A DNA stretch of 64,000 bases from Planktothrix rubescens CCAP 1459/22. Lineage in GTDB: Bacteria > Cyanobacteriota > Cyanobacteriia > Cyanobacteriales > Microcoleaceae. The translations under genes and the position numbers were made by a program. The stretch lies in assembly GCA_904830895.1 (NCBI GenBank), contig LR882960.1, positions 1 to 64,000 of the forward strand, given 5' to 3'. A model generated the notes under the pieces. It made no database searches. It saw nothing but the letters and a program-made list of their open reading frames with translations, and was not told the origin of the DNA. Position 1 is the stretch's first letter, and each line of letters begins with the position of its first letter. Positions 13,435-31,563 of the stretch are shown here, piece after piece.

Positions 13435-13652
13435 AATAAATTATTCCTAATCTGGGTGAACCATATATAGCATATCAGAAAATTTAGTGGCTTTGTGTAG
13501 TAGTTGCCACCTGGCTTACCATCGTAGAAGTCGTGGAAATATCTCACCTGGGCAGTTATTCCTTGATTTAAAACTACCCTAGAATACGGAAAAACCACCC
13601 CTGATGAGGCAGTTCCAAGAATAAGGATTGTAACAGTGACTGAACTCAACAA
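13410..13652 (-). CDS. Possible small exported protein
   Basis: An 80-residue open frame starting MLSSVTVTILILGTASSGVV, which looks like an export signal or membrane segment. It is followed by a tyrosine-rich stretch (RYFHDFYDGKPGGNYYTK) and a second hydrophobic stretch. The C-terminal 25 bases overlap the next gene. There is no clear ribosome site. It may be a real small membrane protein, or its 3' part may be chance. Confidence 0.25.
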   Translation of the reverse strand: MLSSVTVTILILGTASSGVVFPYSRVVLNQGITAQVRYFHDFYDGKPGGNYYTKPLNFLICYIWFTQIRNNLLWTVLKMT

Positions 13653-13931
13653 CGGAGGTGATGTTAGTCACAGGGAATTTTTGAATGATCTATTGGTAAA
13701 GGGGAGTTGACTGCAAAAATTAAGGCAGTTTTTAATTAAAACCTAGCTGTAATTACCAGAACAAGAGAAACCTCAACTATATTTCCGGCTCCGAGTCAAA
13801 GAGATCGGGTTGCCGATTCTGTTGTTCCAGATCGCAAATGGATTAATTAATCTACTCCTTAACGTAATAACTCCAAAGGATCTATAGTAGATTTAAGGGC
13901 TTTCTTTTCGCTCCTAATTTTCCTACCGTTT
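13653..13931. other. Gene-free stretch before the DISARM island
   Basis: About 280 bases without a convincing gene. It should hold the promoter of the DISARM operon, but I see no close match to a consensus promoter. A weak TATAGT box lies near 13884. Confidence 0.3.
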
Positions 13932-16900
13932 ATGGCAACCCCAACCCCGATTCCAGACCCAGGGCAACTTGTAGAGGTGCGAGGAAGACGATTTTCAGTT
14001 ATTGATGTCGGCTCTTCTTCCCTCCCTCAAAACCCCTTAACCCAAAGTTTTACCTCCTCTAAACACCATTTAGTTACCCTCACTTCAGTCGAAGATGATG
14101 GTTTAGGAGAGGAATTGCAAGTCATTTGGGAACTCGAACCTGGGGCTTGTATTTATGAATCTCAAGAACTGCCCTATCCCGATGGGTTTGATGCGCCAGA
14201 ACGATTAGATGCCTTTCTCGATGCTGTGCGTTGGGGAGCTTCCTCTAGTGCTGATGTCCGTTCTGTACAATCTCCCTTTCGTAGTGGCGTCGATATTGAA
14301 GATTACCAACTTGACCCCGTTGTGAGAGCGATTCAAATGCCCAGGGTCAATCTTTTAGTCGCCGATGATGTGGGGTTAGGAAAAACCATAGAAGCGGGAT
14401 TAGTCGCCCAAGAATTAATTTTACGCCAACGAGTCCAACGCATTTTAATCATTTGCCCATCTTCTCTGCAAATCCAATGGCAAGAACAAATGCGGGATAA
14501 ATTCGGTTTAGAGTTTCGGATTGTCAATCGAGACTTAATGCGAGACTTAAGAAGAAATCGGGGACTGCACGTTAATCCTTGGACACATTTTCCTCGGTTA
14601 ATTTCATCAATTGATTTTCTCAAACGAGATCGACCCTTACGCTTATTTCGAGAAGCTCTACCCAGTGAAGGGGAATCAATTTATCCCCGTCGTTTTGATT
14701 TATTAATTGTCGATGAAGCTCATAATATTGCACCATCAGGCGGGGGAAATTATGCCATTGATTCTCAACGCACCGCAGCAATTCGTTTAATTGAACCCCA
14801 TTTTGAACATAAACTTTTTCTAACCGCCACGCCCCATAACGGTTATCCTGAAAGTTTTACCGCTTTATTAGAATTATTAGATTCTCAACGATTTGCCAGG
14901 GGTGTTGCACCAGACCAGAATCAATTACAAGTCGTTATGGTGCGACGGTTAAAATCAGAAATTACCGATTGGGATGGCACACCCCGCTTCCCGGAACGAC
15001 AATTAGAAGCCATTTCCGTTAACTATAGCGACGCTGAACGCGAAGCGAATCGCTTGTTAACTCAATATACTCAATTACGACGAAAAAATCCCCAGAATCA
15101 AGTCGAATTAACAGCTACAGAATTTGTTTTAAAACTATTGAAAAAACGCCTATTTTCTTCGCCAATGGCATTTTTAACAACGTTAGAAAAACATGATCAA
15201 ACTCTACAAAAAGCTAAACCTCGCACCTCTCGTACTGTCTCCAAACCGACACCTGGAATTTTACGCCGTCAGTTAGATCTGATTGATGAAGAATTTGGGG
15301 ATGATGATTTGTATGAAACCACAACAGAGGATGCGATCGCTACTTCTTCTTCCTTATTTCGAGAACTAACCTCTGAAGAAAGAACAATCCTCAATCGCTT
15401 AAAACAATGGGCAGAAGCCGCTTCTCCGGTTCCTGATTCTAAAGCCAAAGAACTCCTGAATTGGATTCAAACCTATATTAAACCCAATAATCAATGGTCT
15501 ACGGAACGGGTAATTATTTTCACCGAATATCGCACCACCCAAAAATGGTTATATGAACTTTTAGCCACCCAAGGACTCGCGGAAAATGACCGTTTAATGA
15601 CCCTCTATGGAGGAATGAAAGCGGAAGACCGAGAACGAATTAAAGCCGCCTTCCAAGCCAGTCCAGAACTGTCTAATGTCCGCATTCTCCTGGCTACCGA
15701 TGCCGCTTCCGAAGGCTTAGATTTACAAAATCATTGTTCTCGTTTAATTCATTATGAAATTCCTTGGAACCCGAACCGCATGGAACAACGAAACGGCCGT
15801 ATTGACCGTCATGGACAAAAAGCCCAACAAGTGATTATTTATCATTTTGTCGGCAAAAGTTATTCTCAACAATCAACTGTTGGGTTATCCCCTGGAGAAT
15901 TAGAAGGGGATTTAGAATTTTTAATGCGGGCGGCTTTAAAAGTAAATAACATCCGTGAAGATTTAGGAAAAGTGGGGCTAGTAATTGCTATCCAAGTCGA
16001 AGAAGCGATGTTAGGAAAACGCCAAACCCTGGACACCACGAAAGCCGAAAAAGAAAGTGAACCTGTGCGACGGTTATTGAAATTTGAACGGAAAATCCGC
16101 GAACAAATTCAGAAATTAAAAGAACAATTAGATGAAACCCGCACTAGCTTAAGATTAGACCCCACTAATATTGAATCTGTGGTTAAAGTTGGTTTAGAAT
16201 TAGCCGGACAGCCCCCGTTAATCCCTTATAAAGACTATCCTTCAGCTTTTATTCTTCCCCCCTTAAAAGGCAGTTGGGCAGGGTGCAGTCAGGGGTTAGC
16301 CCATCCCCACACCGGAGAAATTCGCCCCATTGTTTTTGACCCTGATTTAACGAGAGGACGGGACGATTTGGTTTTAATTCATTTGAACCATCGCTTAGTT
16401 CAGATGTGTTTACGCTTACTTCGAGCGGAGGTTTGGTCACGGGAAGGAAATAAAAATTTACATCGGGTGACGATTAAAGTTGTTCCAAATTCAATCTTAG
16501 AATATCCGGCTGTTGTAGCTTACGGGCGATTAGTCATTTTAGGGAGTGACCAACATCGGTTACATGAAGAATTAATCACCGCCGGGGGAACCTTAGAACA
16601 AGGAAAATTTAACCCTTTAAAGGTGATGAAATTGGAAAACGTGATTCAATCTGCAATTCCTAATTTGGTTTCGGACGAAATGAAAGAACGGTTGGTTAAG
16701 GCGTGGAATCAATATACTCATCCCTTAATGAAACAATTAGAAAAACGAATGGGCGACCGCAGAACTTCCTTAGAAAAAAGCTTGCAAGACCGATGTGACA
16801 AAGAAGTAGGGGATATCAAGGCAATTTTAACTGAATTGCAACGGAGTATTGAACAAGAATTAAATGAACCGGATTTTGTTCAGTTAGAGTTATTTACTTC

Positions 16901-17072
16901 AATAGAAAAGGATCAGTTGGAACGCAATCGCAATAGTTTAAAATTAAGATTAGAACAAATTCCCAAAGAAATTGAACGAGAAACCACAGCGATTTATTCT
17001 CGATTTTCTAATCCAAAGGCTCGATTATTCCCCATTGCGATTACTTATTTTATTCCCCAAAAACTCAGTTAA
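13932..17072 (+). CDS. drmD: DISARM SNF2-family helicase DrmD
   Basis: A 1046-residue SNF2-type ATPase, the first gene of class 1 DISARM, an anti-phage system combining restriction-like methylation and helicase functions. Visible motifs are Walker A DDVGLGKT (145-152), DEAH at 261-264, motif III LTATPHNG, and in the second lobe ATDAASEGLDLQ and RNGRIDRHGQK. A charged coiled-coil-like region (about residues 690-750 and 950-1020) follows. The next gene starts 35 bp downstream, and five more genes follow on the same strand. Identification rests on the helicase type plus the full ordered neighbourhood. It appears intact. Confidence 0.9.
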   Translation: MATPTPIPDPGQLVEVRGRRFSVIDVGSSSLPQNPLTQSFTSSKHHLVTLTSVEDDGLGEELQVIWELEPGACIYESQELPYPDGFDAPERLDAFLDAVRWGASSSADVRSVQSPFRSGVDIEDYQLDPVVRAIQMPRVNLLVADDVGLGKTIEAGLVAQELILRQRVQRILIICPSSLQIQWQEQMRDKFGLEFRIVNRDLMRDLRRNRGLHVNPWTHFPRLISSIDFLKRDRPLRLFREALPSEGESIYPRRFDLLIVDEAHNIAPSGGGNYAIDSQRTAAIRLIEPHFEHKLFLTATPHNGYPESFTALLELLDSQRFARGVAPDQNQLQVVMVRRLKSEITDWDGTPRFPERQLEAISVNYSDAEREANRLLTQYTQLRRKNPQNQVELTATEFVLKLLKKRLFSSPMAFLTTLEKHDQTLQKAKPRTSRTVSKPTPGILRRQLDLIDEEFGDDDLYETTTEDAIATSSSLFRELTSEERTILNRLKQWAEAASPVPDSKAKELLNWIQTYIKPNNQWSTERVIIFTEYRTTQKWLYELLATQGLAENDRLMTLYGGMKAEDRERIKAAFQASPELSNVRILLATDAASEGLDLQNHCSRLIHYEIPWNPNRMEQRNGRIDRHGQKAQQVIIYHFVGKSYSQQSTVGLSPGELEGDLEFLMRAALKVNNIREDLGKVGLVIAIQVEEAMLGKRQTLDTTKAEKESEPVRRLLKFERKIREQIQKLKEQLDETRTSLRLDPTNIESVVKVGLELAGQPPLIPYKDYPSAFILPPLKGSWAGCSQGLAHPHTGEIRPIVFDPDLTRGRDDLVLIHLNHRLVQMCLRLLRAEVWSREGNKNLHRVTIKVVPNSILEYPAVVAYGRLVILGSDQHRLHEELITAGGTLEQGKFNPLKVMKLENVIQSAIPNLVSDEMKERLVKAWNQYTHPLMKQLEKRMGDRRTSLEKSLQDRCDKEVGDIKAILTELQRSIEQELNEPDFVQLELFTSIEKDQLERNRNSLKLRLEQIPKEIERETTAIYSRFSNPKARLFPIAITYFIPQKLS

Positions 17073-17107
17073 AAGTCTAAATTGTCAATCCTCAAATTTT
17101 AATTTAT

Positions 17108-20100
17108 ATGTCTATTGCTCGTCATCATGCTGAATGGTTATCCTTAATTGAAGCTTCTGGCCCCTTCTTAAGCTTGCAAACCTTATTAGAGGTTTTTCCT
17201 CAAGGGTTAGATGCCCATGACCCTGAGCGATTTCGGGTTTTACGTCAAGCGTATGAAGAATGGCTAGAAAATCATTCTGATGTGGGAATTCATCGAACTT
17301 GGGGAGAATGGGTTTTAAAAGAAATCCTCGAATTTCCCGATGAAGTTTTAAAAACAGGGCAAAACATTCCCCAAGGGTTAAAAGTCTTTATTCCTGAACA
17401 TCAAGAAACCCTGCGCCCGGATTATATTGTTAATTCAATAGATGATTCAGCCGATTCAAACCGCCCTAAAATTCGTTTATTGGTGCAAATTTATCCTCCC
17501 GAACAAGCATTAGAAAAAACCCTAAAAAATTCTCGCTGGTCAGCGTCTCCCGCAACTCGGATGATGGAATTACTTCGGGGAACAGGAGTCTGGTTAGGAT
17601 TAATAACCAATGGGGGAAATTGGATGTTAATTAATGCCCCGACGGGAACCAATGAAATCGCCCCAGGGATTAAATATAATACCCCTTCCCCAACCGTTAG
17701 TTATATTTCTTGGTATGCAAATTTATGGTTAGAAGAAAAAATTACCCTCCAAGCGTTTAGAAGTTTATTAGGGGTGCAACGCTTTTTTGGAGTTCCAGAT
17801 GACCAAACCTTAGAAGCTTTATTTGTTAAAAGTGCCGATAGTCAACAGGAAGTTACTGACCAATTAGGGTATCAAGTTAGAAAAGCCGTTGAAGTTTTAA
17901 TTCAAAAAATTGATAAAATTGATCAAGACCGTAACCGTAGCTTATTAAAAAATATTTCACAAACTCAACTTTATGAAGCCGCTTTATTTATGATGATGCG
18001 GTTAGTGTTTCTCTTTTCAGCCGAAGAAAAAGGTTTATTACGGTTAGGCGAGTCCCTTTATGATCAATCTTACTCCGTCTCAACCTTACGGTCACAACTG
18101 CGAGAAATTGCCGACCATTATGGGGAAGAAATCTTAGAACGTCGCCATGATGCTTGGTGTCGTTTATTAGCTACCTTTCGGGCGGTTTATGGGGGCATAG
18201 ACCATGATTTATTGCGTTTACCCGCATTAGGTGGCGATTTGTTTAACCCCGATAAATTCCCCTTTTTAGAAGGACGAACCGAGGGAAATTGGCAACAAGT
18301 TTCCGCCCAACCCATTCCTATTGATAATAGAACTGTTTTACATTTATTAGAAGCATTACAAATTTTACAAATCAAAGTTCCCGGCGGTGGAACAGAACCA
18401 AGACGGTTATCGTTTCGGGCGTTAGATGTGGAACAAATTGGTCATGTGTATGAAGGGTTATTAGACCATACCGCAATTCGCGCAACTTCTCCGGTTTTAG
18501 GATTATTGGGGACAAAAGACAAAGAACCCGAAATTACTTTAGATGAATTAGAAATTGCTTTTGCTAAAGGGGAAAATGAGTTCATTAAAATTCTCAAAAC
18601 TTTAACCGGACGGTCTGAAACGACGTTAAAAAAAGCCGTTGATAGTGCAAACTTTAACAAAACTGTCATCCTGAGTGAAAGGAAGGATTTCGGTGGGGTC
18701 GTGAAGGATAGTAGAGATTCTTCGCCATCCGTTCGACAAGCTCAGGACAAGGCTCAGAATGACAATAATGATGTCATCCTGAGTGAAACGAAGGATCTCG
18801 GTGGTGTCGTCAAGGATAATAGAGATTCTTCGCAAGCTCAGAATGACAATAATAATGCTCAGAATGACAGGAGAGGTTATGCTCAGAATGACAAGAATAA
18901 TCTTCAGAATGACAGGAGAGGTTATGCTCAGAATGATAACCTTTTAATTGCTTGTAATAATAATTCTGAATTATTGGAACGGGTGAAACCCTTTATTAAT
19001 TTAATTCGCTCTGATACCTTCGGTTATCCTGTCATTATTCCCACCGGAAGCGTTTATGTCGCTCAAGGAAATAACCGCCGAGAAACGGGAACCCATTACA
19101 CTCCTAAAAGTTTAACTGAGGAAATTGTTCGTTATACTTTAGAACCTTTAGTATATCAAGGCGTGGCGGAAGGAAAACCGAAAACCGAGTGGAAGTTAAT
19201 TCCCGCGCCGGAACTTTTAAACCTCAAAATCTGTGATATGGCGATGGGTTCAGGGGCGTTTTTAGTTCAGGTTTGTCGATATTTAGGAGAACGATTAATA
19301 GAAGCCTGGAAAGAAGCAGAAACGGCAAATCCAGGTAAGATTGTGATTGCACCGGATGGTCAATTATCTAAGTCTCGTCCCCAAGAATCGATTATCCCTA
19401 TTGACGCGACAGAACGGTTAATGGTGGCAAAACGCATTATCGCCGAACGTTGTATTTATGGAGTGGATAAAAACCCCTTAGCGGTGGAAATGGCAAAGTT
19501 ATCTTTATGGTTAGAAACCTTACAAAAAGATAAACCCTTTACTTTTTTAGACCATGCTTTGAAAGCTGGAGATTCATTAGTCGGAGTGAATTTAGAACAG
19601 TTAAAACGGTGGAATTTACAAACTGAGGGGGAATCTTATCAATTAGGAATTGGCGGAGATGATTTACAACAATTATTAGATGAAGTCATTAATTTTCGGT
19701 TACAAATTGAATCGAAACCCGTCAACAGTCCCCAAGACCAAAAGGAAAAAGAATATTTACTCCTTCAAGCCAATGCCAGAATTAAGGATTTAAAAGATCG
19801 GGCAGATTTATTAATTTCTAGTTATCTCACGAATGTTAAAAAACAGGAACAACAAGACCTACGATTAACTTTATTAATGGTTGCTCAAGGGAAAGCGAGT
19901 ATTACCGACTATCAACGGGAAATTTTACCTGATTTAAACAGTTTAACTCCTTTCCATTGGGAATTAGAATTTCCCGAAGTCTTCCTAACTGCCAGAAATG
20001 AACCCGAATCTAACCTGAATCGTAAATCCAAAATCGTAACTCGTCAATCAACAATTGGTTTTAATGCCCTTGTAGGAAATCCGCCATTTATGGGAGGTCA

Positions 20101-21763
20101 AAAAATTACAGGGCCGTTGGGAACTCCCTATCGAGATTATTTAGTTCAATATTTAGCTAATAATGTCAGAGGAAGTGCCGATTTATGTGCTTACTTCTTT
20201 TTAAGAGGGCAACAGTTAATAAGTGAAAAAGGAGGATTTGGGTTAGTTGCAACTAATACTATTGCCCAAGGAGATACGCGAGAAGTCGGGTTAGACCAAA
20301 TGGTTCAGAATTTACAAACCTCGGCTGTCATCCCACAGACCCCGACCGTCATCCCCCACGCCCCGACTGTCATCCTGAGTGAAACGAAGGATCTCCGTGA
20401 GGTCGTCAAAAATAGTAGAGATTCTTCGCAATCCGTTCGACAAGCTCAGGACAAGGCTCAGAATGACAAGAATAATGCTCAGAATGACAACAATAATGCT
20501 CAGAATGACAGAAAAGGCGTTATTTATCGGGCGGTTAATAGCCGAAAATGGGAAGGAACTGCAAGTTTAGAAGTCGCTTTTGTTTGGATGCGTCAAGGAG
20601 AATGGCAAGGAGACTTTATTTTAGATGAAAAACCTGTTAATGGAATTACACCCTTTTTAACAGTACCAGGGAAATTAGCAGGTAATCCTTATCGGTTAAT
20701 TGCTAATCAAAATAAATCGTTTCAAGGTTCAGTTGTTTTAGGAATGGGGTTTGTATTGGAACCGGAAGAAGCTCAAAAATTAATTGAAAAGAGTCCTAAA
20801 AATAAGGATGTTTTATTTCCCTATTTGAATGGGGAAGATTTAAACTCTAATCCAGATCAATCTCCGAGTCGTTGGGTGATTAATTTCAAAGATTGGCCAT
20901 TAGATGCTGACCAGGATGATCCCAAAAAACCTAAAGGCAGACCCTATGCTGTTGATTATCCAGATTGTTTAAAAATAGTTGAGGAAAAAGTTAAACCAGA
21001 AAGAGATAAAAATAATCGTAAAGAACGCCGTGAAAAATGGTGGCAATATGCGGAGAAGTGTCCAGCACTTTATGAAGCGATCGCAGGTATGAATAGAGTT
21101 TTAAGTATATGCACTCAAGCAACTAAGTTTATATGTCCTGAATTTGTATCAACAAATATAGTGTATTCTAACGCTGTTTCAATTTTAACTTTTGATAGTT
21201 ATTTTGATTTTGCGCTTCTCAACAGTAGTTTTAATGATATTTGGGCAAGAAAATATGCTAGTTCATTAGAAACTCGTTTAAGGTATACACCCACAGACTG
21301 TTTTGAAACTTTTCCCTTTCCTCTTCTAAACAATCAACCCAGAATCGTAAATTTAGAAAAAATTGGTGAAAATTATTATAATTATCGTCAACAAATTATG
21401 TTAACTCGTCAGGAAGGATTAACGAAAACCTATAATCGGTTTCATAACCCCGATGAACAATCCCCAGATATTATAAAATTGCGAGAACTGCACGTTGAAA
21501 TGGATCAAGCCGTTGCTGTAGCTTACGGTTGGGATGACCTCGCCTTAGATCACAATTTCCACGAAACAAAACAAGGAATTCGGTATACAATTAGTGAAGC
21601 AGCTAGACGGGAAATATTAGACCGACTGTTGCAACTAAATCATCAACGTTACGCGGAAGAAGTTGAAGCCGGACTTCATGATAAAGGCAAGAAGAAAGCG
21701 ACAAAAAAAAAGCCTAATGAATCTTCATCTCCCCCTGAAGCTGGACAATTGACTTTATTTTAA
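17108..21763 (+). CDS. drmMI: DISARM adenine-specific DNA methyltransferase DrmMI, with repeat-derived insertions
   Basis: A 1551-residue N6-adenine methyltransferase, the modification subunit of class 1 DISARM. The AdoMet-binding motif DMAMGSGAF lies near residue 710 and the catalytic NPPF near residue 990. The N-terminal 500 residues and the C-terminal target-recognition part look normal. Two low-complexity stretches interrupt it: residues about 519-615 (18661-18951) and about 1073-1137 (20325-20518). Both are built of VILSETKDL, VVKDSRDSS and AQNDNN units encoded by a dispersed repeat. Both keep the frame, and neither contains a stop. They fall outside the catalytic motifs, so the enzyme may still fold. 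The C terminus ends AGQLTLF. Confidence 0.9.
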   Translation: MSIARHHAEWLSLIEASGPFLSLQTLLEVFPQGLDAHDPERFRVLRQAYEEWLENHSDVGIHRTWGEWVLKEILEFPDEVLKTGQNIPQGLKVFIPEHQETLRPDYIVNSIDDSADSNRPKIRLLVQIYPPEQALEKTLKNSRWSASPATRMMELLRGTGVWLGLITNGGNWMLINAPTGTNEIAPGIKYNTPSPTVSYISWYANLWLEEKITLQAFRSLLGVQRFFGVPDDQTLEALFVKSADSQQEVTDQLGYQVRKAVEVLIQKIDKIDQDRNRSLLKNISQTQLYEAALFMMMRLVFLFSAEEKGLLRLGESLYDQSYSVSTLRSQLREIADHYGEEILERRHDAWCRLLATFRAVYGGIDHDLLRLPALGGDLFNPDKFPFLEGRTEGNWQQVSAQPIPIDNRTVLHLLEALQILQIKVPGGGTEPRRLSFRALDVEQIGHVYEGLLDHTAIRATSPVLGLLGTKDKEPEITLDELEIAFAKGENEFIKILKTLTGRSETTLKKAVDSANFNKTVILSERKDFGGVVKDSRDSSPSVRQAQDKAQNDNNDVILSETKDLGGVVKDNRDSSQAQNDNNNAQNDRRGYAQNDKNNLQNDRRGYAQNDNLLIACNNNSELLERVKPFINLIRSDTFGYPVIIPTGSVYVAQGNNRRETGTHYTPKSLTEEIVRYTLEPLVYQGVAEGKPKTEWKLIPAPELLNLKICDMAMGSGAFLVQVCRYLGERLIEAWKEAETANPGKIVIAPDGQLSKSRPQESIIPIDATERLMVAKRIIAERCIYGVDKNPLAVEMAKLSLWLETLQKDKPFTFLDHALKAGDSLVGVNLEQLKRWNLQTEGESYQLGIGGDDLQQLLDEVINFRLQIESKPVNSPQDQKEKEYLLLQANARIKDLKDRADLLISSYLTNVKKQEQQDLRLTLLMVAQGKASITDYQREILPDLNSLTPFHWELEFPEVFLTARNEPESNLNRKSKIVTRQSTIGFNALVGNPPFMGGQKITGPLGTPYRDYLVQYLANNVRGSADLCAYFFLRGQQLISEKGGFGLVATNTIAQGDTREVGLDQMVQNLQTSAVIPQTPTVIPHAPTVILSETKDLREVVKNSRDSSQSVRQAQDKAQNDKNNAQNDNNNAQNDRKGVIYRAVNSRKWEGTASLEVAFVWMRQGEWQGDFILDEKPVNGITPFLTVPGKLAGNPYRLIANQNKSFQGSVVLGMGFVLEPEEAQKLIEKSPKNKDVLFPYLNGEDLNSNPDQSPSRWVINFKDWPLDADQDDPKKPKGRPYAVDYPDCLKIVEEKVKPERDKNNRKERREKWWQYAEKCPALYEAIAGMNRVLSICTQATKFICPEFVSTNIVYSNAVSILTFDSYFDFALLNSSFNDIWARKYASSLETRLRYTPTDCFETFPFPLLNNQPRIVNLEKIGENYYNYRQQIMLTRQEGLTKTYNRFHNPDEQSPDIIKLRELHVEMDQAVAVAYGWDDLALDHNFHETKQGIRYTISEAARREILDRLLQLNHQRYAEEVEAGLHDKGKKKATKKKPNESSSPPEAGQLTLF
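18661..18951. repeat. Dispersed repeat inserted in frame in drmMI, first site
   Basis: Contains two copies of a CATCCTGAGTGAA(A/G) CGAAGGAT-type unit, each followed by a TAGAGATTCTTCG unit, and then many GCTCAGAATGACAAT-type tandem units. Related sequence appears at 20366-20518 and at 63830-63900. Such palindromic repeats are common between genes; here they are translated. Confidence 0.8.
20325..20518. repeat. Dispersed repeat inserted in frame in drmMI, second site
   Basis: The same family as 18661-18951: a short CCCGACCGTCATCCC-type duplication, one TCATCCTGAGTGAAACGAAG unit, a TAGAGATTCTTCG unit and three GCTCAGAATGACAA units. It is in frame within drmMI, about 80 residues after the catalytic NPPF. 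Confidence 0.8.
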
Positions 21764-21823
21764 TCCAGATTTTTATTGTTCATTTTACTTGATAAAATTT
21801 TAGTATAGGAGTTAATTAGCATC

Positions 21824-23227
21824 ATGAATAATACAGAATATCAAGGCTTTTGGTGGTTGCCATCTAATCCAAACGAATCAGTAGCAGGAGTATTAACCTT
21901 TAAACCTTCAGAAATAATTGAACTCAAACTCATCGGAGCCTTAGTAGGAAACTCAGGTGGGAATCAAGATCATGTTAATCTACCAATTATATTAGGAGTA
22001 GTTGAAAGGAAGATTATTACTCTTTCAGACTGTATTCGCACAAAATTTAACTCAAGTAGACCAGGATATGATAGCGAAACCTATAGAGTAAAATTTGTTT
22101 TTATTGGTGAACACTTTCAAGATCCTCAAGAAATACGGTTTAACGAAGTTTCAATTCAGTCTACTTACTTATCAGACTGGGTTAATTTTTCTCCTATTCA
22201 AGAATTACCAACTATAGATGATACAAATAATCTTCAACAATTCACTTTTATCTATAATAAACCGGAAAGCATAAAAGCCAATATCATAGAAGGAGAAATT
22301 TCAGTATTTTATGGGTGTCAAAATTCAGGTAAACTTTATGATATTGATTTTAAGCAATTGTCTTCTATTAGTATTAAAGTTAATCAATTTATTTCTTTTG
22401 AAGATTTATACTCTCAATATATTTGTCCTATCTTAGACTTTTTAACATTGGCTACAGGACAACCTAATTCTGTAGAAAAAATTTATTTTCCTGATATAAA
22501 TAATGAATTGAAATCAGTAGAAATGCTTTTTTTCAGCAATTCTATAGAGTCTAAAAAAATACTTTCAACTGATGATTTACTATTTAGCTTGGCTGACATC
22601 GAATCCGATTTTAGCTTAATGTTACAACTATGGTTTAATTCTTATAAGGAGTTAGAGAGTATATTTAACCTCATTTTTAGCACTGAGTATAAACCTGATA
22701 TGTACTTAGAAAGTAAGTTTCTTAATATTGCACAAGCTGCTGAGTCTTATCATCGCCGAAGATGTAAAAATCAAGTTTTGACTCAGCCAGAACATGACGC
22801 TAGAATTGAATCTATATTAAATAATACTCCAGAAGAATATAAAAAATGGTTGAATGCGAAACTTCATTTTAGTAATGAACCCCCCTTACTGGAGAGGTTA
22901 ATGGATTTATTAGACAAAACAAAAAAAGTAATGAATCCTTTAGTAAAAGATCATGCAAAGTTTGCTAAAAAAGTTAGAGATACTCGAAACTATTTTACTC
23001 ATTGGAATACTGATCTTCAAGATAAAGCCGCTCAAGGTGAAGAATTGTTTAGAATAACACAAACACTTTTATTTATGCTTCAATCTTGTTTACTGATGGA
23101 ACTGGGTTGTACTCCAGAACGGTGCGCTGAATTAATTAGCAAAAATAAAAAATATCAGTATGCTGTTCGGAACATATCAAAAACTGAAAAAAGCCAAGCG
23201 ACGAGGAGAGTTCAGGAAGCTGAATGA
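21824..23227 (+). CDS. ApeA-like HEPN ribonuclease embedded in the DISARM operon
   Basis: A 467-residue protein. The N terminus (YQGFWWLPSNPNESVAGVL) resembles the N-terminal domain of the anti-phage abortive-infection protein ApeA, whose members start with a G-x-WWLP-type strand and a G-x-L strand. The C-terminal third is helical with a HEPN RNase motif: Arg388-NYFT-His393. HEPN proteins cut RNA to shut down infected cells. It sits 60 bp after drmMI and 46 bp before drmA, on the same strand, so it is probably co-transcribed. It is not one of the standard DISARM components. It appears intact although drmA is broken. The family call is from pattern recognition only. Confidence 0.7.
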   Translation: MNNTEYQGFWWLPSNPNESVAGVLTFKPSEIIELKLIGALVGNSGGNQDHVNLPIILGVVERKIITLSDCIRTKFNSSRPGYDSETYRVKFVFIGEHFQDPQEIRFNEVSIQSTYLSDWVNFSPIQELPTIDDTNNLQQFTFIYNKPESIKANIIEGEISVFYGCQNSGKLYDIDFKQLSSISIKVNQFISFEDLYSQYICPILDFLTLATGQPNSVEKIYFPDINNELKSVEMLFFSNSIESKKILSTDDLLFSLADIESDFSLMLQLWFNSYKELESIFNLIFSTEYKPDMYLESKFLNIAQAAESYHRRRCKNQVLTQPEHDARIESILNNTPEEYKKWLNAKLHFSNEPPLLERLMDLLDKTKKVMNPLVKDHAKFAKKVRDTRNYFTHWNTDLQDKAAQGEELFRITQTLLFMLQSCLLMELGCTPERCAELISKNKKYQYAVRNISKTEKSQATRRVQEAE

Positions 23228-23273
23228 TACTCAAAAATTACCAATTGTAAATTTAAAATTGTAAATCTTAATT

Positions 23274-26200
23274 ATGGAAATCCTTAAACTCCCTGCTGTT
23301 CTCCCTGGTACTTTAGACTTAGTTGAAATCAATCTAAAACTCAAAAAAGGTGAGATTCAACTTGATTGGAATGCAGTGATTTCCGCCCCTGAATCGGCTT
23401 TAAAAATTCTATTAGACGGGATAGAATTAAAGGATGAGAACTTAATCCCTGATGATAGCGGAGTTGCAGATCAAGTTATTCGTCAAATTACAACTTATTT
23501 TGACAATTGCCATAAAAAACAAACTAAAAAAATTGTCAGAAATCCTGAACAATCTTCTTTATTTAATGTTGAATATATCGCTGCTAATCAACCGGAAAAA
23601 CAAGGCAGTTTAATCGAACAACAATTTATTATTAATCCCAACCTCACCGAACTTAATCCCCCTGAATCGCCAATGGTAAATCCCCAATCGTCAATCATAA
23701 ATCCCAAATCCCCCTATGAACTTCGCCAAGAATTAGAAGAAATGATTTTCAACGATTTACTCGGCCCGGCGGAGGGAGAAGACGAAGAAGTGGATGAAAG
23801 TAGTGTAACAGATCGCTATTTAGTCGGACTATTATCCCCCTTAATTCGCAATAAAACCCCAGAAGAACAACCCGAACAACAAGACGAATTCGTCCCCGCC
23901 GAAAAAGGTAACTCAGAAGAAGGAACCACAGAGGGAACCATACCCCCACCTAATACCATGTTCCCCTCATCAATGGGTTTAACCTTCTGCGTTGATAGTG
24001 ATGTAAAAGCCATAAAAATTACCGCCAAATGGGGACATTATCAACGAGAAAAGAAACAAAATTTAACTGAAAAAGAAACATCAGAACCCAAACGAATTTG
24101 GAAACGCTATCCCATTCAAGGAACCAAAATTCAACCCTTAAAATCCGGTGAAATCCCTGAATGGACTGTTGACCCCGAATATCCAGGGGTAATCGTTAAA
24201 GGACGGATGCGCCGCCTCGATAATCAAGATTGGATTGTCACCTTATTTTTAGTGAATGGTCAAAAAGAACCCGCTAAACAACGAGATAAAGCTTGGTTAT
24301 TCCAACCGGAATTAATGATTGATTCCCCTGATAAAAATTATTCTAATATTTTCGTTAAAAAACCTGTTTCAATTCAACAAAACTTAGATCCTGTTATTCA
24401 ACTAGAAAATCAACAAATGGCGATGTTATATCGTCATCAAGTGGAATTTGCTGTCGGACATGGGGTGGGGGTTCATGCCGAAATTGTCCCCGACAATCCC
24501 ACCCAAGCCTCCGGTCTAAAAACCTGCATGATTCCCCGCTATGAAGTACCACAAACCACACCCCCCAGCGTTGAAGAAATTCCTCAGTTAAACGGGTTAA
24601 TTTTAGACATGAAAACCCTAGCGGAAGCCCAACCCACCGACGTTCCCCAACTCTTAACCCCCCTGATTACCGCTTATCAAAACTGGATTCAAGAACAACA
24701 ACAATCACTACAAGATTTACTCCTCAACCCCGACTTTTTACCTTCTCAAAATGCAGCCCAAACCACCCTCAATCATTGCCAAACTACCTTAGACCGTATC
24801 CAAGAAGGGATTCAACTTTTAACCCAAAATCCCCAAGCCGTAGAAGCCTTTCAATTTATGAATGAAGCCATGTGGCGACAGCGTGTACACGGGATTTATG
24901 CTGAACTTAAACGTCAAGGAAAAGATCCGAATTTAGATGAAATTGATACCCCGAACAATCATAGCTGGCGAACTTTTCAACTTGCTTTTATTCTCCTGAA
25001 TTTACCCCCTCTCACTGATTTACACCACCCCGGCCGTTCTCACCCTCTGGATGCGGTCTGTGATTTACTGTGGTTTCCCACCGGAGGCGGTAAAACCGAA
25101 GCTTATTTAGGACTCACAGCCTATACCATCGGACTGCGGCGGTTACAGGGTTCTATTGGGGGACGAGATGGAGAACATGGAGTAGCCGTTTTAATGCGCT
25201 ATACCCTGCGTTTATTGACCTTGCAACAGTTCCAACGGGCAACCACCTTAATTTGTGCCTGTGAAGTCATCCGCCGCCAAAACCCGCAAAAATGGGGGTC
25301 AGAACCGTTTCGGATTGGTTTATGGGTCGGAAACAATAGCACCCCCAACTACACCAGCCAAAGCGAAGAATTTGTCAAACAAAGCAAAGGACAAGGGCGA
25401 CCCTCCGGTATGGGTTCCCCCCACCAACTCACGAACTGTCCTTGGTGTGGCACAAAAATCGACCCAGGTAGACACATTGTTGTCCACCCCGTTGATAAAG
25501 AACAAGGACGCACCCTCGTCTACTGTGGAGATAGTTTAGGACGATGTTGCTTTACCCTCAAACAGTCTCCCCAGGAAGGGTTGCCCATTATAGTTGTTGA
25601 TGAAGAAATTTATCGGCGTTTACCAACTCTGTTAATTGCCACCGTTGATAAATTTGCCCAAATGCCGTGGAAAGGGGAAACCCAAATGTTATTCGGACAG
25701 GTGAGTGGTTACTGTGACCGTCATGGGTTCCGCTCTCCCGACTTAGACGATAAAGACAGCCACCGCGCCACCAATAAACTTCCCGCCGCCAAAACCCGAC
25801 CTCATGCTCTCCTGCGTCCCCCCGACTTAATTATCCAGGATGAATTGCATTTAATTAGTGGCCCCTTGGGGTCAATGGTGGGACTGTATGAAACCGTTGT
25901 GGATCATTTGTGTACTTGGGAAGTTAATGGTCAATCTGTCCGTCCTAAAGTGATTGCTTCAACGGCCACCATCCGCCAAGCGTCCGCCCAAGTTCACCAT
26001 CTATTTTTGCGGAAGCTGCATATTTTCCCGCCACCTGGGTTGGATATTCAAGATAACTTTTTCTCCCGCCGTCGAGAACCGAGTCCTGAGCATCCTGGGC
26101 GACTGTATTTAGGCATTTGCGCCCCCGGTCGGCGGTTAAAAGCGACGATGATTCGGGTGTATTTAGCCACGTTATCGGCAGCGCAGGCATTGTATGAGAA

Positions 26201-26426
26201 ATATGGAAAAGTTGCAGACCCTTGGATGACCTTGGTGGGTTACTTTAACTCCCTACGAGAATTGGGGGGAACACGAAGGTTAGTGGAAGATGATATTCGG
26301 ACTCGTTTAAAGCGGATGAGTGAACGGGGATTGAAAAATCGCCTGTTAAGAAACTTTGATGAATTAACCTCCCGTAAGGATTCTACGGATATTCCCCTGA
26401 TAAGCTGTTATGCATTTAAACTGTGA
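23274..26426 (+). pseudogene. drmA: DISARM helicase DrmA, N-terminal part, cut by an IS630 element
   Basis: First 1043 residues of DrmA, the DISARM helicase core. Visible are Walker A FPTGGGKTEAYLG (near residue 605), a four-cysteine zinc site (CPWCG and later CGDSLGRCC), DELH (near residue 856) and STATIRQ. The native frame ends at 26402; the last residues CYAFKL come from the IS. Removing 26403-27589 and one TA joins ATA to TTAGACCGT and gives one uninterrupted 1307-codon protein. The missing second RecA lobe is in the 27592-28386 fragment. Residues around 125-150 (NPQSSIINPKSPYE) match an intergenic-type repeat also seen between drmA and drmB. The truncated product lacks the motif needed for ATP-driven unwinding. 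Confidence 0.9.
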
Positions 26427-27589
26427 TTATAGCATTACCTTTGTTTTTAAGTTTACGTCCCCATTTAATAGATAACTGTCCCTCATTTAAAAGCTGATGC
26501 AATAAACACTCTAGCTCATCAACTGATTTAAAGAGTCGATTAGCAATATATTCTTTAGCTGAATGCCAGACCAATTCAATTAAATTATAATCTGGACTAT
26601 ATTCTGGAAGAAATTCTAAATAGATATTAGGCATTTCTGCTTTAATTTTTTCTAGGTATTCTTCTTTTTTGTGAAAACTTGCATTATCAAGAATAATGAC
26701 AATCTTTGCTCCTTTTTCTACAAATTCTTCTGCTTGATTTCCCGCTAATACCCACTCATGAATTAGCTCTTGATAAAAACTTTTTAACACTTGATAAAAA
26801 TTATTTGCATTCCCTTTATCCAGAAATTCTACAAATCTTTTTTTGTCCGAGTACCTCAATCCTCCCATAACATTAACTTTTCCTTTCCTTCTGTCTCCTC
26901 TAATCTTTCTTCTCTTTCCTTTTTCACACCAGTTCTTTCTTTTTATTACTCTTAAATTAAATCCACTTTCATCCCAAAACCATACCTGTAATTGTTCTGG
27001 ACTTTCTTTTGTTATTTTTAAATATTCTTCTATTTTATTTTTAAATAATTTCCTTTTTTCTGGATCTCTTTTCTCTTCCAAGCTATACTTTGCCCACAAG
27101 TAAACATACTTTTTTTTCTTTAATATCCTTCTCACTTGTGAACCACTTAATTTTATTTCTGTGATTTGTTCTAAATAAGTTGCCAATCTTTCTCCTGTCC
27201 ATCTCCCAAATTCATATCCTAATTCTTCCGGTTCTTTTTCTACAGTTTCTAATAATATCTCTATATATTTATCTGTGGCTTTTCTATTATTTCCTTTCAT
27301 TCTTTCATCTTTCAGGCTTTCTAACTTGTCCGGATCTCCATGTACACACCAATAACATACTTTATTTATTGAACATCCCAAAAAATTGGCAATTTCACTT
27401 TGTTTTTTACCATCATTTAGCAATAGTAGAATCAAGATTCTTTCTCTGATTTGTCCATTTTCTTCCTCTTTCAATCTTTTCTGTAGTTTCTCTACTTGCT
27501 TTTCATTTAAGTGATTTTTAGCAGGCATCTTTTTATTGATTTTTCTAAACTTAGTTTTTCATTATACCCTATTTAGATGCTGAACAGCT
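26403..27589 (-). mobile_element. IS630-family element, IS630-A copy 1, inserted in drmA
   Basis: A 1187-bp element with imperfect terminal inverted repeats (AGCTGTTATGCATTTAAA at one end, AGCTGTTCAGCATCTAAA at the other). It is flanked by a TA target duplication at 26401-26402 and 27590-27591, as is typical for IS630/Tc1-mariner elements. It carries one transposase gene. Three more copies with the same length and the same encoded protein lie at 37304, 43588 and 47188, so spread was recent. Confidence 0.95.
26416..27528 (-). CDS. IS630-family transposase (copy 1)
   Basis: A 370-residue DDE transposase. An N-terminal helix-turn-helix (KQSEIANFLGCSINKVCYW) binds the ends. The catalytic triad is visible as FWDESGF, IILDNASFHK and the final Glu in NLIELVWHSAKE. 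Start ATG at 27528 with RBS-like AAAAAGATG context. The length is normal for the family. The protein is the same in all four copies of this window. Confidence 0.95.
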   Translation of the reverse strand: MPAKNHLNEKQVEKLQKRLKEEENGQIRERILILLLLNDGKKQSEIANFLGCSINKVCYWCVHGDPDKLESLKDERMKGNNRKATDKYIEILLETVEKEPEELGYEFGRWTGERLATYLEQITEIKLSGSQVRRILKKKKYVYLWAKYSLEEKRDPEKRKLFKNKIEEYLKITKESPEQLQVWFWDESGFNLRVIKRKNWCEKGKRRKIRGDRRKGKVNVMGGLRYSDKKRFVEFLDKGNANNFYQVLKSFYQELIHEWVLAGNQAEEFVEKGAKIVIILDNASFHKKEEYLEKIKAEMPNIYLEFLPEYSPDYNLIELVWHSAKEYIANRLFKSVDELECLLHQLLNEGQLSIKWGRKLKNKGNAIITV

Positions 27590-28386
27590 TATTAGACCGT
27601 TTAGAAACTCCCTTTGACCCCCTATTGGAAGCGGAGAACCAAGCCAAACGCAAAGCAGGTCAGAAAGTTGAAAGACCTGACCCCCTGGATGTGATTCTCG
27701 CCACCAATATGATTTCCGTTGGGGTTGATGTTAAACGTCTGGGGTTAATGGTCGCCTGTGGTCAACCGAAAAATACCGCCGAATATATTCAAGCCACTTC
27801 ACGGGTGGGACGAAGTTACCCTGGTTTGGTGATCACTGTTTATAACTGGGCTAGACCCAGGGATTTATCCCACTATGAACGGTTTGAACACTACCATGCC
27901 ACTTTTTATCAGCACGTTGAGGCGTTATCGGTGACTCCCTTTGCATCTGGAGCTTTGTATCGAGGTTTAAGTGCGTTATTCGTGTCTTTAGTTCGTCTCT
28001 GTGGCGATGAATTTAATCAAAATAATTCCCCTGGTTTAATTCAACGCAACCATCCGTTTATACAAGAGGCAATTAATGTTATTGTTCGACGGGCTGAACT
28101 CATTGAAGGGGTTGAAAAAGGTCAACAAGTGCGTCGAGAATTAGAAGCCAAATTAGATACTTGGTTAAATAAAGCTCAAACTCTAGCTGGGGGAGCGACT
28201 TTAAAATATAAAGTAACTTCACGGGATGGAACGGCTATTAATTTATTAGAAAATGCCGGACAAGGACAATGGCAAGATTTCACCTGTTTAGCGTCATTAA
28301 GAAATGTTGAACCGACCATCGGATTAATTTTAACAGATCAACCCCTCGATGAGGAGCGAGATAGAAAACCTCAACCGTTTGAGTAA
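27577..28386 (+). pseudogene. drmA: DISARM helicase DrmA, C-terminal part after the IS
   Basis: The second RecA-like lobe of DrmA. Helicase motifs ATNMISVGVDVKRLG and QATSRVGRSYPG are present, followed by NWARPRDLSHYERFEHYH and a C-terminal helical part. The native sequence begins at 27592; codons from the ATG at 27577 (MLNSL) lie in the IS end and run straight into drmA. A separate C-terminal polypeptide could therefore be made, but there is no clear ribosome site. Whether two-piece DrmA can work is unknown; loss of function is the simplest reading. Confidence 0.85.
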
Positions 28387-28424
28387 ATCGTAAATCATAA
28401 ATCATAAATCATAAATCGTAAATC
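28383..28424. repeat. Short tandem repeat (9-mers TAAATCATA/TAAATCGTA)
   Basis: Five head-to-tail 9-mers fill the 40-bp gap between drmA and drmB. Similar AATCRTAAATCC units occur inside the drmA coding region (about 23680-23712) and in drmMI (about 20030). Confidence 0.6.
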
Positions 28425-28426
28425 CC

Positions 28427-30295
28427 ATGACTCAATCTCCACCCAAAAAAACCAAAGTCGGTGAACTGCGTCCAAGCCAAATTTTATTCACCTATGGAAT
28501 TGGAGCGGTTGCCGATTTACCGAATCTTTCTGCAATGGTTATGGGACTAGAAGACTGGAGTAGAAACCATACCATTGAACTCTCAGAAAATCGTCTCTTA
28601 GCCGCCGTTCGTAAAGAACTCGGACATCAAGTTAAACAACTGCTTTCACCTCCTATGCCTCCTGAAAGCTCTGACCCGTCTAACCCCTTTGATGAAGGCT
28701 CTAAAATCGGGATTCCTGTAGCTCCGTTTCCTACTTGGATGGTTTGTCCTCGCTGTCGATTATTAGCTCCTTTAGCCTCCCAATTATTTGAACTCAAAAT
28801 TAATCCTTATCGCCCTAATGAAACCCGTTATGTTCATAAGAATTGCTCCAAAAGTATTAAACCCCCTGGCGTTATTCCTGCCCGTTTTTTAGTTGCTTGT
28901 GAACGAGGACATTTAGATGATTTTCCCTGGTCTTATTTTGTTCATCACGGTCAAGCAGCCTGTCCAGGGCCTTTATATTTAGAAGAAAGAGGCGTTTCAG
29001 GGAACGTTACGGATATTTTTGTTCGGTGTAAAGGGTGTGACATTCCGCCCCGAAGTCTGTCCGATGCCTTTGGAGATTCGGGTAAAAAAAATATGCCCCG
29101 TTGTCGCGCTCATCACCCCCATCTTCGTAGCTTTGATGAAGATTGTAAAGAACAAATGAAAAGTATTTTATTAGGGGCTTCTAATAGTTGGTTTTCTATT
29201 ACCTTATCCGCTCTTTCCATTCCCGTTGATTCTAATGTATTAGGGCAGTTAGTGGAACGCAATTTTAATGTTCTCAGTAAAGCAAATAGTCGAGAAATTC
29301 TACAAGGTATTTTAGCAGCAATGCAAGCAATGGGACAACTACAAGAATTTGCCGATTATTCCTTAGAAGAGATTTGGAATACATTACAGCAACAACAACA
29401 AGGTTTAGAAACCAACGACAATGCACAGGATTTAAAAACTCCTGAATGGGAAGTTTTTTCAACCGCTAACCCCAGTAAAAATAATTCAGAATTTCAGTTA
29501 AGAACTGTCGCACCTCCCGTTGGATTTGAAGCGTATTTTGAACCCACCGTGTTAGTAGAACGACTAAGGGAAGTTCGGGCTTTAATTGGTTTTACCCGCA
29601 TTCAATCTCCTGGGGATTTTGCGGATACGGGAGAAATTCCCCGTGAATATCGAGTTTCTATTAGTCGTAATCCTCCCACCTGGGTTCCCACGACAGAAGT
29701 TAAAGGGGAGGGAATTTTTTTGCGTTTTCAAGAATCTTTTTTACAAGAATGGGAACAACGTCCGGGTATCCGCAAACATGAAATTTTAACCCGTGAAGCC
29801 CATAAAAATTGGCTTAATAGTCGAAATTTAGATCCTGATAAAATTCATTCTCCCTCCATTCGTTATTTATTAATTCATTCCTTCTCTCACACCTTAATGC
29901 GTCAATTGTCAATTGAATGTGGTTATAATGCAGCCAGTCTCAGAGAACGGATCTACTCCAAACCCCCAGAAGATGAGAATGGCCCCCAAGCCGGATTATT
30001 AATTTATACAGCAACTCCCGATAGTGAAGGCACATTAGGGGGATTAGTCCATTTAGGTGAACCGAAAACCCTGGGACACCACATCAGTCAAGCCTTAGAG
30101 CAAATGCGTTTATGTGCTTCAGATCCCCTCTGTGCTGAACATAAGCCAATGGAGGGAACTCCAACCTTACATTGGGCTGCCTGCCATGCCTGTTTATTTG
30201 CCCCCGAAACTTCTTGTGAACGGGGAAATCAATTTTTAGATCGGACGGTATTAGTTCCGACGCTTGAACGGGATGATTTAGCTTTTTTTGAGTAA
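28427..30295 (+). CDS. drmB: DISARM DUF1998 zinc-binding protein DrmB
   Basis: A 622-residue protein with the DrmB/DUF1998 signature. It has CPRCR in the first third, then CERGHLDDFPW, CKGCD, and a C-terminal cluster CHACLFAPETSCERGNQ typical of the DUF1998 metal site. DrmB works with the DrmA helicase and is thought to help block or sense incoming DNA. It starts 40 bp after the DrmA stop and ends 8 bp before drmC, so they are one operon. The gene is intact. SIRYLLIHSFSHTLMRQLS is another conserved patch. Confidence 0.9.
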   Translation: MTQSPPKKTKVGELRPSQILFTYGIGAVADLPNLSAMVMGLEDWSRNHTIELSENRLLAAVRKELGHQVKQLLSPPMPPESSDPSNPFDEGSKIGIPVAPFPTWMVCPRCRLLAPLASQLFELKINPYRPNETRYVHKNCSKSIKPPGVIPARFLVACERGHLDDFPWSYFVHHGQAACPGPLYLEERGVSGNVTDIFVRCKGCDIPPRSLSDAFGDSGKKNMPRCRAHHPHLRSFDEDCKEQMKSILLGASNSWFSITLSALSIPVDSNVLGQLVERNFNVLSKANSREILQGILAAMQAMGQLQEFADYSLEEIWNTLQQQQQGLETNDNAQDLKTPEWEVFSTANPSKNNSEFQLRTVAPPVGFEAYFEPTVLVERLREVRALIGFTRIQSPGDFADTGEIPREYRVSISRNPPTWVPTTEVKGEGIFLRFQESFLQEWEQRPGIRKHEILTREAHKNWLNSRNLDPDKIHSPSIRYLLIHSFSHTLMRQLSIECGYNAASLRERIYSKPPEDENGPQAGLLIYTATPDSEGTLGGLVHLGEPKTLGHHISQALEQMRLCASDPLCAEHKPMEGTPTLHWAACHACLFAPETSCERGNQFLDRTVLVPTLERDDLAFFE

Positions 30296-30303
30296 AAAAA
30301 CTT

Positions 30304-31098
30304 GTGAATCGTCAACTTTTAGAAAAAATTTATCAGGTGGCTCAAGAATTACCGCCTCTGGTGTTAAACTCCGTCATTCATTCTTTGGGGGAGCAAGTTT
30401 TTGATTCCCATTATCCGTTCATTGATCAAATTTTAAATCAACTTTCTAATCCAATGTTTCGCCGTTTAGTGGGTGAATTGTTTACCCTTTGGCAACAAGA
30501 TCAATCGGATTGGGATAGTCGGGCGATCGCTTCTGCGTTAATGGCTTCAGCTTATTCGATTCAATCCACTCAACAATCCTTAGCAGCCGAATTAGTTTGG
30601 ACAGGCCCACCCACTTTAGGGATTCCAGTTCGACGGACTGATCAAGTCTTATTACAATTGATTCGAGACACCCAACAACAATTAATTATTATTAGTTTTG
30701 CGGTTTACAAAATCCCAGAAATTGCCGAAGCTTTATTAGAAGCCTTAGAGCGAGGAATTCAATTAAAAATTATTTTAGAAACTACTCAAGCAGAAGGGGG
30801 TAAGATGTCTTTTAAAGGAACAACCGCATTGGGGCAGAAAATCCTTAGAGACGCGCAAGTTTTTCTTTGGCCTGTAGAAAAGCGGCTTCATGATCCGCAG
30901 GGACGTTATGGTTCTTTACATATTAAAAGTGTGATTTCAGATCAGAAATATTTATTTATTACCAGTGCCAATCTCACCGAATATGCTTTGACCTTGAATA
31001 TGGAAATGGGAGTATTACTCAAAAGTCCAGCCTTAGCCTCTCAAGTCACTGATCTAATTTATCACCTAATTCATCAAGAAGTTTTAGTAAAATTATAG
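30304..31098 (+). CDS. drmC: DISARM phospholipase-D-family protein DrmC
   Basis: A 264-residue PLD-superfamily protein, the last DISARM gene. The N-terminal half is helical. The catalytic HKD-type motif is visible as LHIKSVISD, followed by ITSANLTEYAL with the Glu/Asn expected for this family. It has one HKD, so it likely dimerises. The start is a GTG placed eight bases after the drmB stop. In published DISARM studies drmC was dispensable. The gene is intact. Confidence 0.88.
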   Translation: MNRQLLEKIYQVAQELPPLVLNSVIHSLGEQVFDSHYPFIDQILNQLSNPMFRRLVGELFTLWQQDQSDWDSRAIASALMASAYSIQSTQQSLAAELVWTGPPTLGIPVRRTDQVLLQLIRDTQQQLIIISFAVYKIPEIAEALLEALERGIQLKIILETTQAEGGKMSFKGTTALGQKILRDAQVFLWPVEKRLHDPQGRYGSLHIKSVISDQKYLFITSANLTEYALTLNMEMGVLLKSPALASQVTDLIYHLIHQEVLVKL

Positions 31099-31315
31099 TT
31101 TATATTAAAAAATAAGGATTCTAAGACCCGGGGTTTGAGTAGCAACTGTGCAGAAAGTGCCGTTAAGGATTTAGCTTTCGTGCGATTCGTTAAACCTTAA
31201 TTGAATTGGTACAAAACGGATTGAGATTTGTTAAGAAAAGTCAACTTCTAAAACCTATGCTGTAATTGATTTTAGCCTTACCGTAAGTTTCTGTACGATT
31301 GCTATTCAAACCTTT
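31099..31315. other. Gene-free stretch after DISARM
   Basis: About 217 bases with no clear gene. I find no strong terminator after drmC. Confidence 0.3.
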
Positions 31316-31528
31316 CTACTCAGGTGCAGTTTCCTGGGGGTCTTTCGCTTTTTTCTCAAATACTTGAATTGCGGGGTCAGCCAAGACAAAGCCATCGGGA
31401 GTAGCTTCTCCCAGCTTCCCAGCAATCGCCGCCACCCACATCGGATAATTCGCTTGCGCTTCCTCTAGTTTTTTGAACATTTTCGGCTTCACTGTTATTG
31501 TGAAGATTCTGCCATCACGGGTAGCCAC
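31316..31528 (-). CDS. Small hypothetical protein
   Basis: A 70-residue protein with an N-terminal strand-like segment (GRIFTITVKPKMFKKLEEA) and a lysine/glutamate-rich tail. The context suggests a small plasmid accessory protein next to partition genes. It has no cysteines, signal peptide or known motif. Its start ATG is followed by an ordinary coding pattern, and it lies on the strand opposite to its neighbours. Confidence 0.45.
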   Translation of the reverse strand: MATRDGRIFTITVKPKMFKKLEEAQANYPMWVAAIAGKLGEATPDGFVLADPAIQVFEKKAKDPQETAPE

Positions 31529-31563
31529 CGAGATACGCGCGAAATGGGACAGGTTGTAACAAA

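Follow-up and report, generated by a model that had tools for sequence, protein, structure and literature searches.

Within a class-1 DISARM operon of Planktothrix rubescens lies a gene for a predicted HEPN RNase of the ApeA family, and its location raises the question of whether the gene is a part of DISARM or independent cargo. We examined the gene, its surroundings and its relatives in a stretch of 64,000 nucleotides (the window) and in DISARM and ApeA loci from other genomes and plasmids. The original prediction for this locus had proposed a DISARM variant with an abortive-infection arm, and possibly an undescribed system.

The HEPN gene and its host operon

The contig carrying the window is 93,983 bases long. 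The nearest DNA relatives of the window are three Planktothrix agardhii plasmids, from which we infer that the contig is itself a plasmid. By PADLOC models the operon is class-1 DISARM, with drmD, drmMI, drmA, drmB and drmC all present and co-directional (Table 1). The DrmA helicase is interrupted by an IS630-family element that separates its DEAD-like part from its Helicase_C part, a feature absent from the original prediction; the N-terminal part reaches approximately residue 1043 of the 1335-aa sister DrmA. Besides the copy in drmA, the element is found at 37303-38490, 43588-44775 and 47188-48375. As all four copies are 1188 bp long and 100% identical, the insertion into drmA is probably recent.

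Table 1. Coordinates of the HEPN gene, its flanking DISARM genes and related features in the window
Feature	Position	Strand	Evidence
drmD, SNF2-like helicase of class-1 DISARM	13932..17072	+	PADLOC DrmD 1451 bits
drmMI, MmeI/Eco57I-like adenine methyltransferase	17108..21763	+	PADLOC DrmMI 1771 bits; Pfam Eco57I, MmeI_TRD
Replaced segment	21722..23256	+	blastn vs L021, L022, L023
ApeA-family HEPN RNase (predicted) gene	21824..23227	+	Pfam, PADLOC, alignments, predicted model
Putative decayed remnant of VapB/DUF2281-type antitoxin gene end (HEPN gene end and stop)	23182..23228	+	DNA alignment
drmA, N-terminal part, cut by IS	23274..26426	+	PADLOC DrmA 884 bits
IS630-family element inside drmA	26403..27590	-	Pfam; 4 identical copies in window
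drmA, C-terminal Helicase_C part	27577..28386	+	PADLOC DrmA 639 bits
drmB (DUF1998/MZB)	28427..30295	+	Pfam, PADLOC; NCBIfam DrmB_fam 721.6 bits
drmC, PLD-like	30304..31098	+	Pfam, PADLOC

Several other features of the window were recorded. Upstream of drmD, only pieces of the region 13001-13576 match an HNH gene that the sister plasmids carry complete in the same place, and the gene looks broken in the window. Repeated DNA within drmMI (18655-18936 and 20368-20513) differs between Planktothrix strains. A Cas10/Cmr2-like protein at 49113-50783, scoring below the NCBIfam cut-off, suggests that the contig also carries a type III CRISPR region, and a large TPR-CHAT protein (39390-42731) adjoins one of the IS630 copies.

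The HEPN gene has a full-length reading frame of 467 aa from ATG to stop. As originally described, it lies inside the DISARM operon on the same strand as its neighbors, separated from drmMI by 60 bp and from drmA, downstream, by 46 bp. Comparison with the Pfam models placed ApeA_NTD1 (PF18862) at residues 5-268 (3.9e-49, 168 bits vs a cut-off of 25.5) and HEPN_Apea (PF18739) at residues 300-431 (1.1e-34, 120.2 bits vs a cut-off of 24.4), both far above the curated cut-offs. The predicted active site reads R388-N-Y-F-T-H393 (R-x4-H), and R388, N389 and H393 were invariant in 8 homologues from genomes or plasmids and in 12 from viral contigs, two alignments that are not fully independent; the homologues found were only 20-45% identical to the window protein. 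The proposal of an ApeA-type N terminus joined to an R-4-H motif at Arg388/His393 was thus borne out, and its sequence places the protein in the ApeA family.

E. coli ApeA is a tested system. The protein also matched PDC-S58 (600 bits), which PADLOC lists as a candidate single-gene defense family, and a 2013 survey of HEPN proteins, in its available part, already describes ApeA embedded in R-M operons in epsilonproteobacteria (PMC3710099). The idea of an undescribed system was therefore not upheld.

An AlphaFold2 model of the protein (mean pLDDT 83.9, pTM 0.78) has a beta-rich N-terminal half and an all-helical C-terminal half, as would be expected for the ApeA architecture. Foldseek searches with the model gave no significant match, and a sequence search against solved structures gave none. 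Residues 7-240 (21824-22560), in the ApeA N-terminal domain, weakly resembled Hcp and phage tail proteins in fold, at a level inside the background of the tool.

No drm gene is as AT-rich as the HEPN gene (GC 31.1% and GC3 21.2%, vs 38.5-44.5% and 28.7-38.8% for the drm genes), and the lowest GC3 among 500 drm chunks was 25.9%. By this composition the gene looks foreign. Its codon-usage distance of 1.14 was inside the range of the drm chunks (mean 0.89, 95th percentile 1.52), so that base composition alone marks the gene as foreign. A promoter scan for the gene yielded 12 sigma-70-like sites, compared to 9.2 expected in shuffles, and so gave no signal. No terminator-like sites were found from 21500 to 23600, and no RNA element reached the Rfam gathering score within 13000-32000.

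Content of the drmMI-drmA junction

The DISARM genes of three P. agardhii plasmid loci matched the window with 93.6-96.3% mean identity over the matched pieces, in blocks of 85 to 98.6%. By blastn, this similarity breaks off within the final codons of drmMI (21721-21723) and restarts at 23248-23257, just before drmA; both junctions were clean in alignments with relatives. Strains PCC 7805 and NIES-204 (L021 and L023) carry a gene for a 96-aa antitoxin-like protein and a PIN gene in this slot, and strain No.66 (L022) carries a GIY-YIG gene. A fourth locus (L250), split over two contigs of one genome, has a GIY-YIG gene in the slot as well (99.1% over 431 bp). The content of the slot therefore differs even among Planktothrix strains with closely similar DISARM DNA, and these sister loci amount to natural swap experiments. 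The breaks in similarity at the slot edges, the different contents of the sister slots and the AT-rich HEPN gene are all consistent with arrival of the gene by a cassette swap.

Two further differences between the loci were observed. Repeat arrays of the TGTCATTCTGAGTG type stand beside the accessory genes in sister slots (L021:13770-14140, L022:13350-13600) and were not seen in the slot of the window. A gene for a 23S-rRNA-IVP four-helix protein, located between drmD and drmMI in the sister plasmids, is absent from the window.

To place the slot in a wider setting, we collected DISARM stretches from plasmids, cyanobacterial genomes and genome contigs of many phyla, 115 including the window. 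In 77 of these, drmMI and drmA lie in the same direction within the stretch; in the other 38 they do not. The loci are not independent, as some are close relatives, and the DrmMI relatives come from one alignment, among the matches listed. For the loci among the matches listed, 58 of 77 had a drmMI-drmA junction of 400 bp or longer (median 1702 bp); this tally leaves out L174, a duplicate of L079, and becomes 57 of 77 under another setting of the gene ends. Among the same matches, junctions of at least 400 bp were counted for drmA-drmB in 3 of 71 loci, for drmB-drmC in 2 of 48 and for drmD-drmMI in 37 of 96, the last resembling a second, less used slot. The contrast between drmMI-drmA and drmA-drmB is large (Fisher p = 2e-20), the p-value being only a guide since the loci are not independent.

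Slot reading frames of at least 120 aa run mostly in the direction of DISARM (93 the same, 31 opposite). Pfam families were tallied for 120 such proteins, taken from loci other than L021-L023, L078 and the window, in three lists, two of which hold the best 25 of 37 and the best 25 of 46 families. Among the matches listed were PIN (4+2), GmrSD_N (3+1), Fic (1+2), XisH (3) and DUF4435 (1+1), along with OLD-like AAA, HepT-like, PemK, TumE, HipA-like and Uma2 families, OLD TOPRIM and a Pycsar TM effector. Other HEPN types thus do turn up in the slot: one HepT-like protein was among the matches listed for these 120 proteins, and Synechocystis B12 has an annotated nucleotidyltransferase and DUF86 pair there. 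Twenty slot proteins scanned singly comprised 3 GmrSD proteins, 4 OLD-like ATPases, 3 UvrD-like helicases, 5 with other domains and 5 without a family. Slots outside Planktothrix thus contain GmrSD, OLD/PARIS-like, Fic or PIN genes, where we take PARIS to be the combination of AAA_15 and DUF4435. The UvrD-like helicases recur in slots L132, L133 and L182, from two cyanobacteria and one member of the Ktedonobacteria, and one of them has a weak ParE-like N terminus.

From these sequences, the drmMI-drmA junction appears to be a slot whose cargo is accessory toxins and nucleases; the position recurs and ApeA, in the stretches searched, does not. This suggests that a DISARM operon can carry exchangeable add-on weapons, and an occupied junction so rich in nucleases and toxins supplies a list of candidate DISARM effectors. 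A literature search, mostly outside subscription papers, found nothing on ApeA within DISARM or on a drmMI-drmA cargo slot.

If the HEPN gene were a regular component of DISARM, it should recur in this position. An ApeA profile had no match at E<1 in the 8218 ORFs of the 114 other DISARM stretches, which are a sample, and further DISARM stretches that were examined held none besides the window's own copy; unrelated hosts with ApeA between drmMI and drmA were thus not found in the sampled stretches. Conversely, no Drm match was present beside the ApeA gene in any of 47 other ApeA stretches, a few of which cover the same gene and 15 of which have flanks of only 1.5 kb. Of the 65 plasmid records in which ApeA matched, four were inspected, and these had no DISARM. 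Counting the window's own gene both times, ApeA occurred in 10 of 61 genomes of the family and in 13 of 386 of the phylum (cyanobacteria). Among the sampled stretches, then, ApeA within DISARM was seen only here. As ApeA elsewhere lacks Drm neighbors, the HEPN gene is, judging by this distribution, slot cargo and not a fixed DISARM component, and the ApeA family does not need DISARM. The original proposal is accordingly supported as to the protein family, its intact R-x4-H site and its place inside a DISARM operon, and not supported as to a recurring combination of ApeA with DISARM; what recurs is the slot. The suggested trigger, a failure of DISARM, may apply.

A separate observation concerns the protein encoded ahead of the slot. 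In the DrmMI proteins of 107 stretches, including that of the window, the C terminus is often a basic linker followed by a QLxLF-like pentapeptide, which we take to resemble a sliding-clamp-binding motif. The strict pattern was present within the last 15 aa of 13 of 107 DrmMI proteins, compared to 0.08 expected from its internal frequency, some of these ORFs being truncated or related copies. It was not found in the last 15 aa of DrmA (0/72), DrmB (0/64) or DrmD (0/100). On the Oscillatoria DISARM plasmid pOSC7112.01 (L068:18103 onward), a gene annotated dnaN (sliding clamp) directly follows drmB.

Apparent relation of the HEPN gene to an antitoxin-PIN module

In four loci of related genomes (L024, L025, L032 and L033), a PIN gene comes immediately after an ApeA gene, and its product shares approximately 50% identity with the PIN encoded in the sister DISARM slots. 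The HEPN and PIN genes overlap by 4 nt in L024, L025 and L032, and the HEPN proteins of these three loci bear a C-terminal tail like a PIN antitoxin. In L024 and L025, which were compared, the tail shares 45-46% identity, over 39-40 aa, with the end of the antitoxin that accompanies the sister-slot PIN. A profile of the three tails was searched against 22,253 ORFs; below E 0.01 it retrieved only copies of that antitoxin (E 3.9e-4; six entries, two strains), and the next match, an antitoxin-like gene preceding the toxin of another DISARM slot, had E 0.17. In L033 the tail is matched in part only and reading frames look interrupted, as does the PIN gene of L032, and L024 has a second tail match on a separate short gene region further on. 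The loci with HEPN tail and overlapping PIN at L024:8828-10758 and L025:8731-10679 lie away from DISARM.

In the window, the tail is absent as protein and is recognizable only as a putative remnant at the DNA level. The last 47 bases of the HEPN gene align with the end of the antitoxin gene in 37 of 48 identical columns, with one 1-nt gap. Six of 10000 random segments of the window reached this score, and about 7 were estimated to cover the site itself; none of 60152 segments from other loci, drawn from part of the loci with the window excluded, reached a comparable score (36). A search of the window for PIN at E 1e-3 gave no match. A 13-nt match to the PIN gene end between the HEPN stop and drmA was considered as a PIN scar and rejected as not significant, as 135 of 10000 window segments reach it. 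Because its end aligns with that of the antitoxin gene, the HEPN gene of the window was apparently at one time linked to an antitoxin-PIN module or brought into one by recombination. If confirmed, the arrangement in the relatives, where a HEPN protein ends like an antitoxin and its gene overlaps that of PIN, would be a new way to couple two RNases. The slot together with this apparent HEPN-antitoxin/PIN ancestry is the stronger result, rather than the single HEPN gene.

Proposed role and comparison with known systems

The reading that we favor, and consider probable, is that the gene encodes a stand-alone abortive-infection RNase of the ApeA family (PDC-S58), an autonomous and exchangeable cargo in the drmMI-drmA slot of class-1 DISARM. 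A PDC-S58 gene, descended from or recombined with a HEPN-antitoxin/PIN module, would have moved into the junction; its tail would since have decayed and the PIN been lost. The beta-rich ApeA_NTD1 domain would sense a phage signal and otherwise keep the C-terminal HEPN domain inactive. After sensing, a HEPN dimer would cut RNA through R388 and H393, growth would stop and the phage could not multiply. The gene would ride on DISARM transcription and act independently, with DISARM as its neighbor and not its switch, giving the cell a layered defense in which DISARM acts on DNA and the HEPN protein, as a last resort, on RNA. Sensing by the N-terminal domain followed by release of HEPN to halt the cell is the most likely course, given the homologues without DISARM and what the available parts of two papers say of HEPN biology (PMC3710099, PMC11087260). 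Autonomy would be carried over to the window protein from homologues of low identity (20-45%), and the patchiness of the ApeA family, at 13 of 386 cyanobacterial genomes, speaks against the cargo reading.

A bolder and rather unlikely alternative is that class-1 DISARM is a modular platform. DrmD and DrmMI with the tightly overlapped drmA-drmB-drmC would form a sensor and restriction chassis, and the drmMI-drmA junction would be reserved for effector modules that can replace one another (HEPN, PIN, GIY-YIG, GmrSD, OLD/PARIS-like, Fic and others) released by DISARM activity or failure. The ApeA protein would be one such effector, from a lineage in which some proteins would be at once an RNase and the antitoxin to another RNase (PIN), a two-stage suicide device.

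It is unlikely, in our estimate, that the gene is what is left of a HEPN-antitoxin/PIN addiction module in decay, a passenger on the DISARM plasmid with no present role in defense. The antitoxin-derived tail with its 1-nt gap, the lack of a remaining PIN match in the window, the drmA gene broken by an IS and the frequency of toxin-antitoxin-like modules in slots would all suit such a passenger, and the decayed tail may mean that the gene is on its way out. Against this, the HEPN reading frame is full length, its catalytic residues, invariant in homologues, are intact, and many tail-less homologues are full length, so that the tail is not needed for the frame to be kept.

Quite unlikely, we believe, is an integrated DISARM effector. 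In this reading the HEPN protein would be switched on by the DISARM complex, or by a block or overload of DISARM, in the way that PrrC is by its R-M partner, and the slot would supply a DrmAB sensor with exchangeable effectors. The slot lies immediately ahead of drmA, its genes are mostly co-directional, and nucleases or toxins are frequent among them. The available part of the DISARM structure paper leaves open which nuclease destroys the target of class-1 DISARM, with DrmC dispensable and DrmAB proposed to recruit another nuclease (PMC9142583). Comparable auxiliary or backup nucleases in BREX loci (PMC12839542, in part) and PrrC with its R-M system (PMC3710099, in part) offer precedents. However, among the searched stretches an ApeA-type HEPN gene was in DISARM only in the window, the content of the slot varies against a nearly constant DISARM background, which gives no sign of co-adaptation, and 19 of 77 slots, for the loci among the matches listed, are shorter than 400 bp. 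A chance reading frame was rejected on the domain scores and the invariant active site.

We compared the locus with known systems. One is the VapBC-type antitoxin-PIN pair: in sister slots an antitoxin gene precedes PIN, and the tails of related HEPN proteins resemble this antitoxin, whereas the window has no PIN match and its tail is decayed. In gene set and order (drmD-drmMI-drmA-drmB-drmC) the operon is like other class-1 DISARM, and the sister Planktothrix loci share most of its DNA; it differs in the HEPN gene in the drmMI-drmA junction and in a drmA gene interrupted by an IS630 element.

A 2026 survey described backup nucleases inside BREX loci; in its available part, HEPN, PIN, GmrSD and OLD-TOPRIM/PARIS-type genes lie inside a core defense operon, much as in the DISARM slots (PMC12839542). 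The host system here is instead DISARM, a term that does not occur in the main text of that survey. Second-line HEPN nucleases of the PrrC type likewise place a HEPN RNase within a modification-based DNA defense operon (PMC3710099, in part); unlike PrrC, the window protein has no ABC-ATPase domain, and the link to DISARM seen here is one of position. Tha, as portrayed in the available part of its description, shares the R-x4-H HEPN RNase and the abortive-infection outcome proposed here, with phage tail proteins as its trigger, but it is a 301-aa protein encoded by S. aureus prophages and has no recognized N-terminal domain (PMC11087260). The closest likeness is to the ApeA family itself (PDC-S58), with ApeA_NTD1 and HEPN_Apea end to end, the R-x4-H motif and a single-gene layout; the gene of the window differs in its place within a DISARM operon, in a 3' end that appears to be derived from an antitoxin gene and in the low identity (20-45%) of its product to the homologues found.
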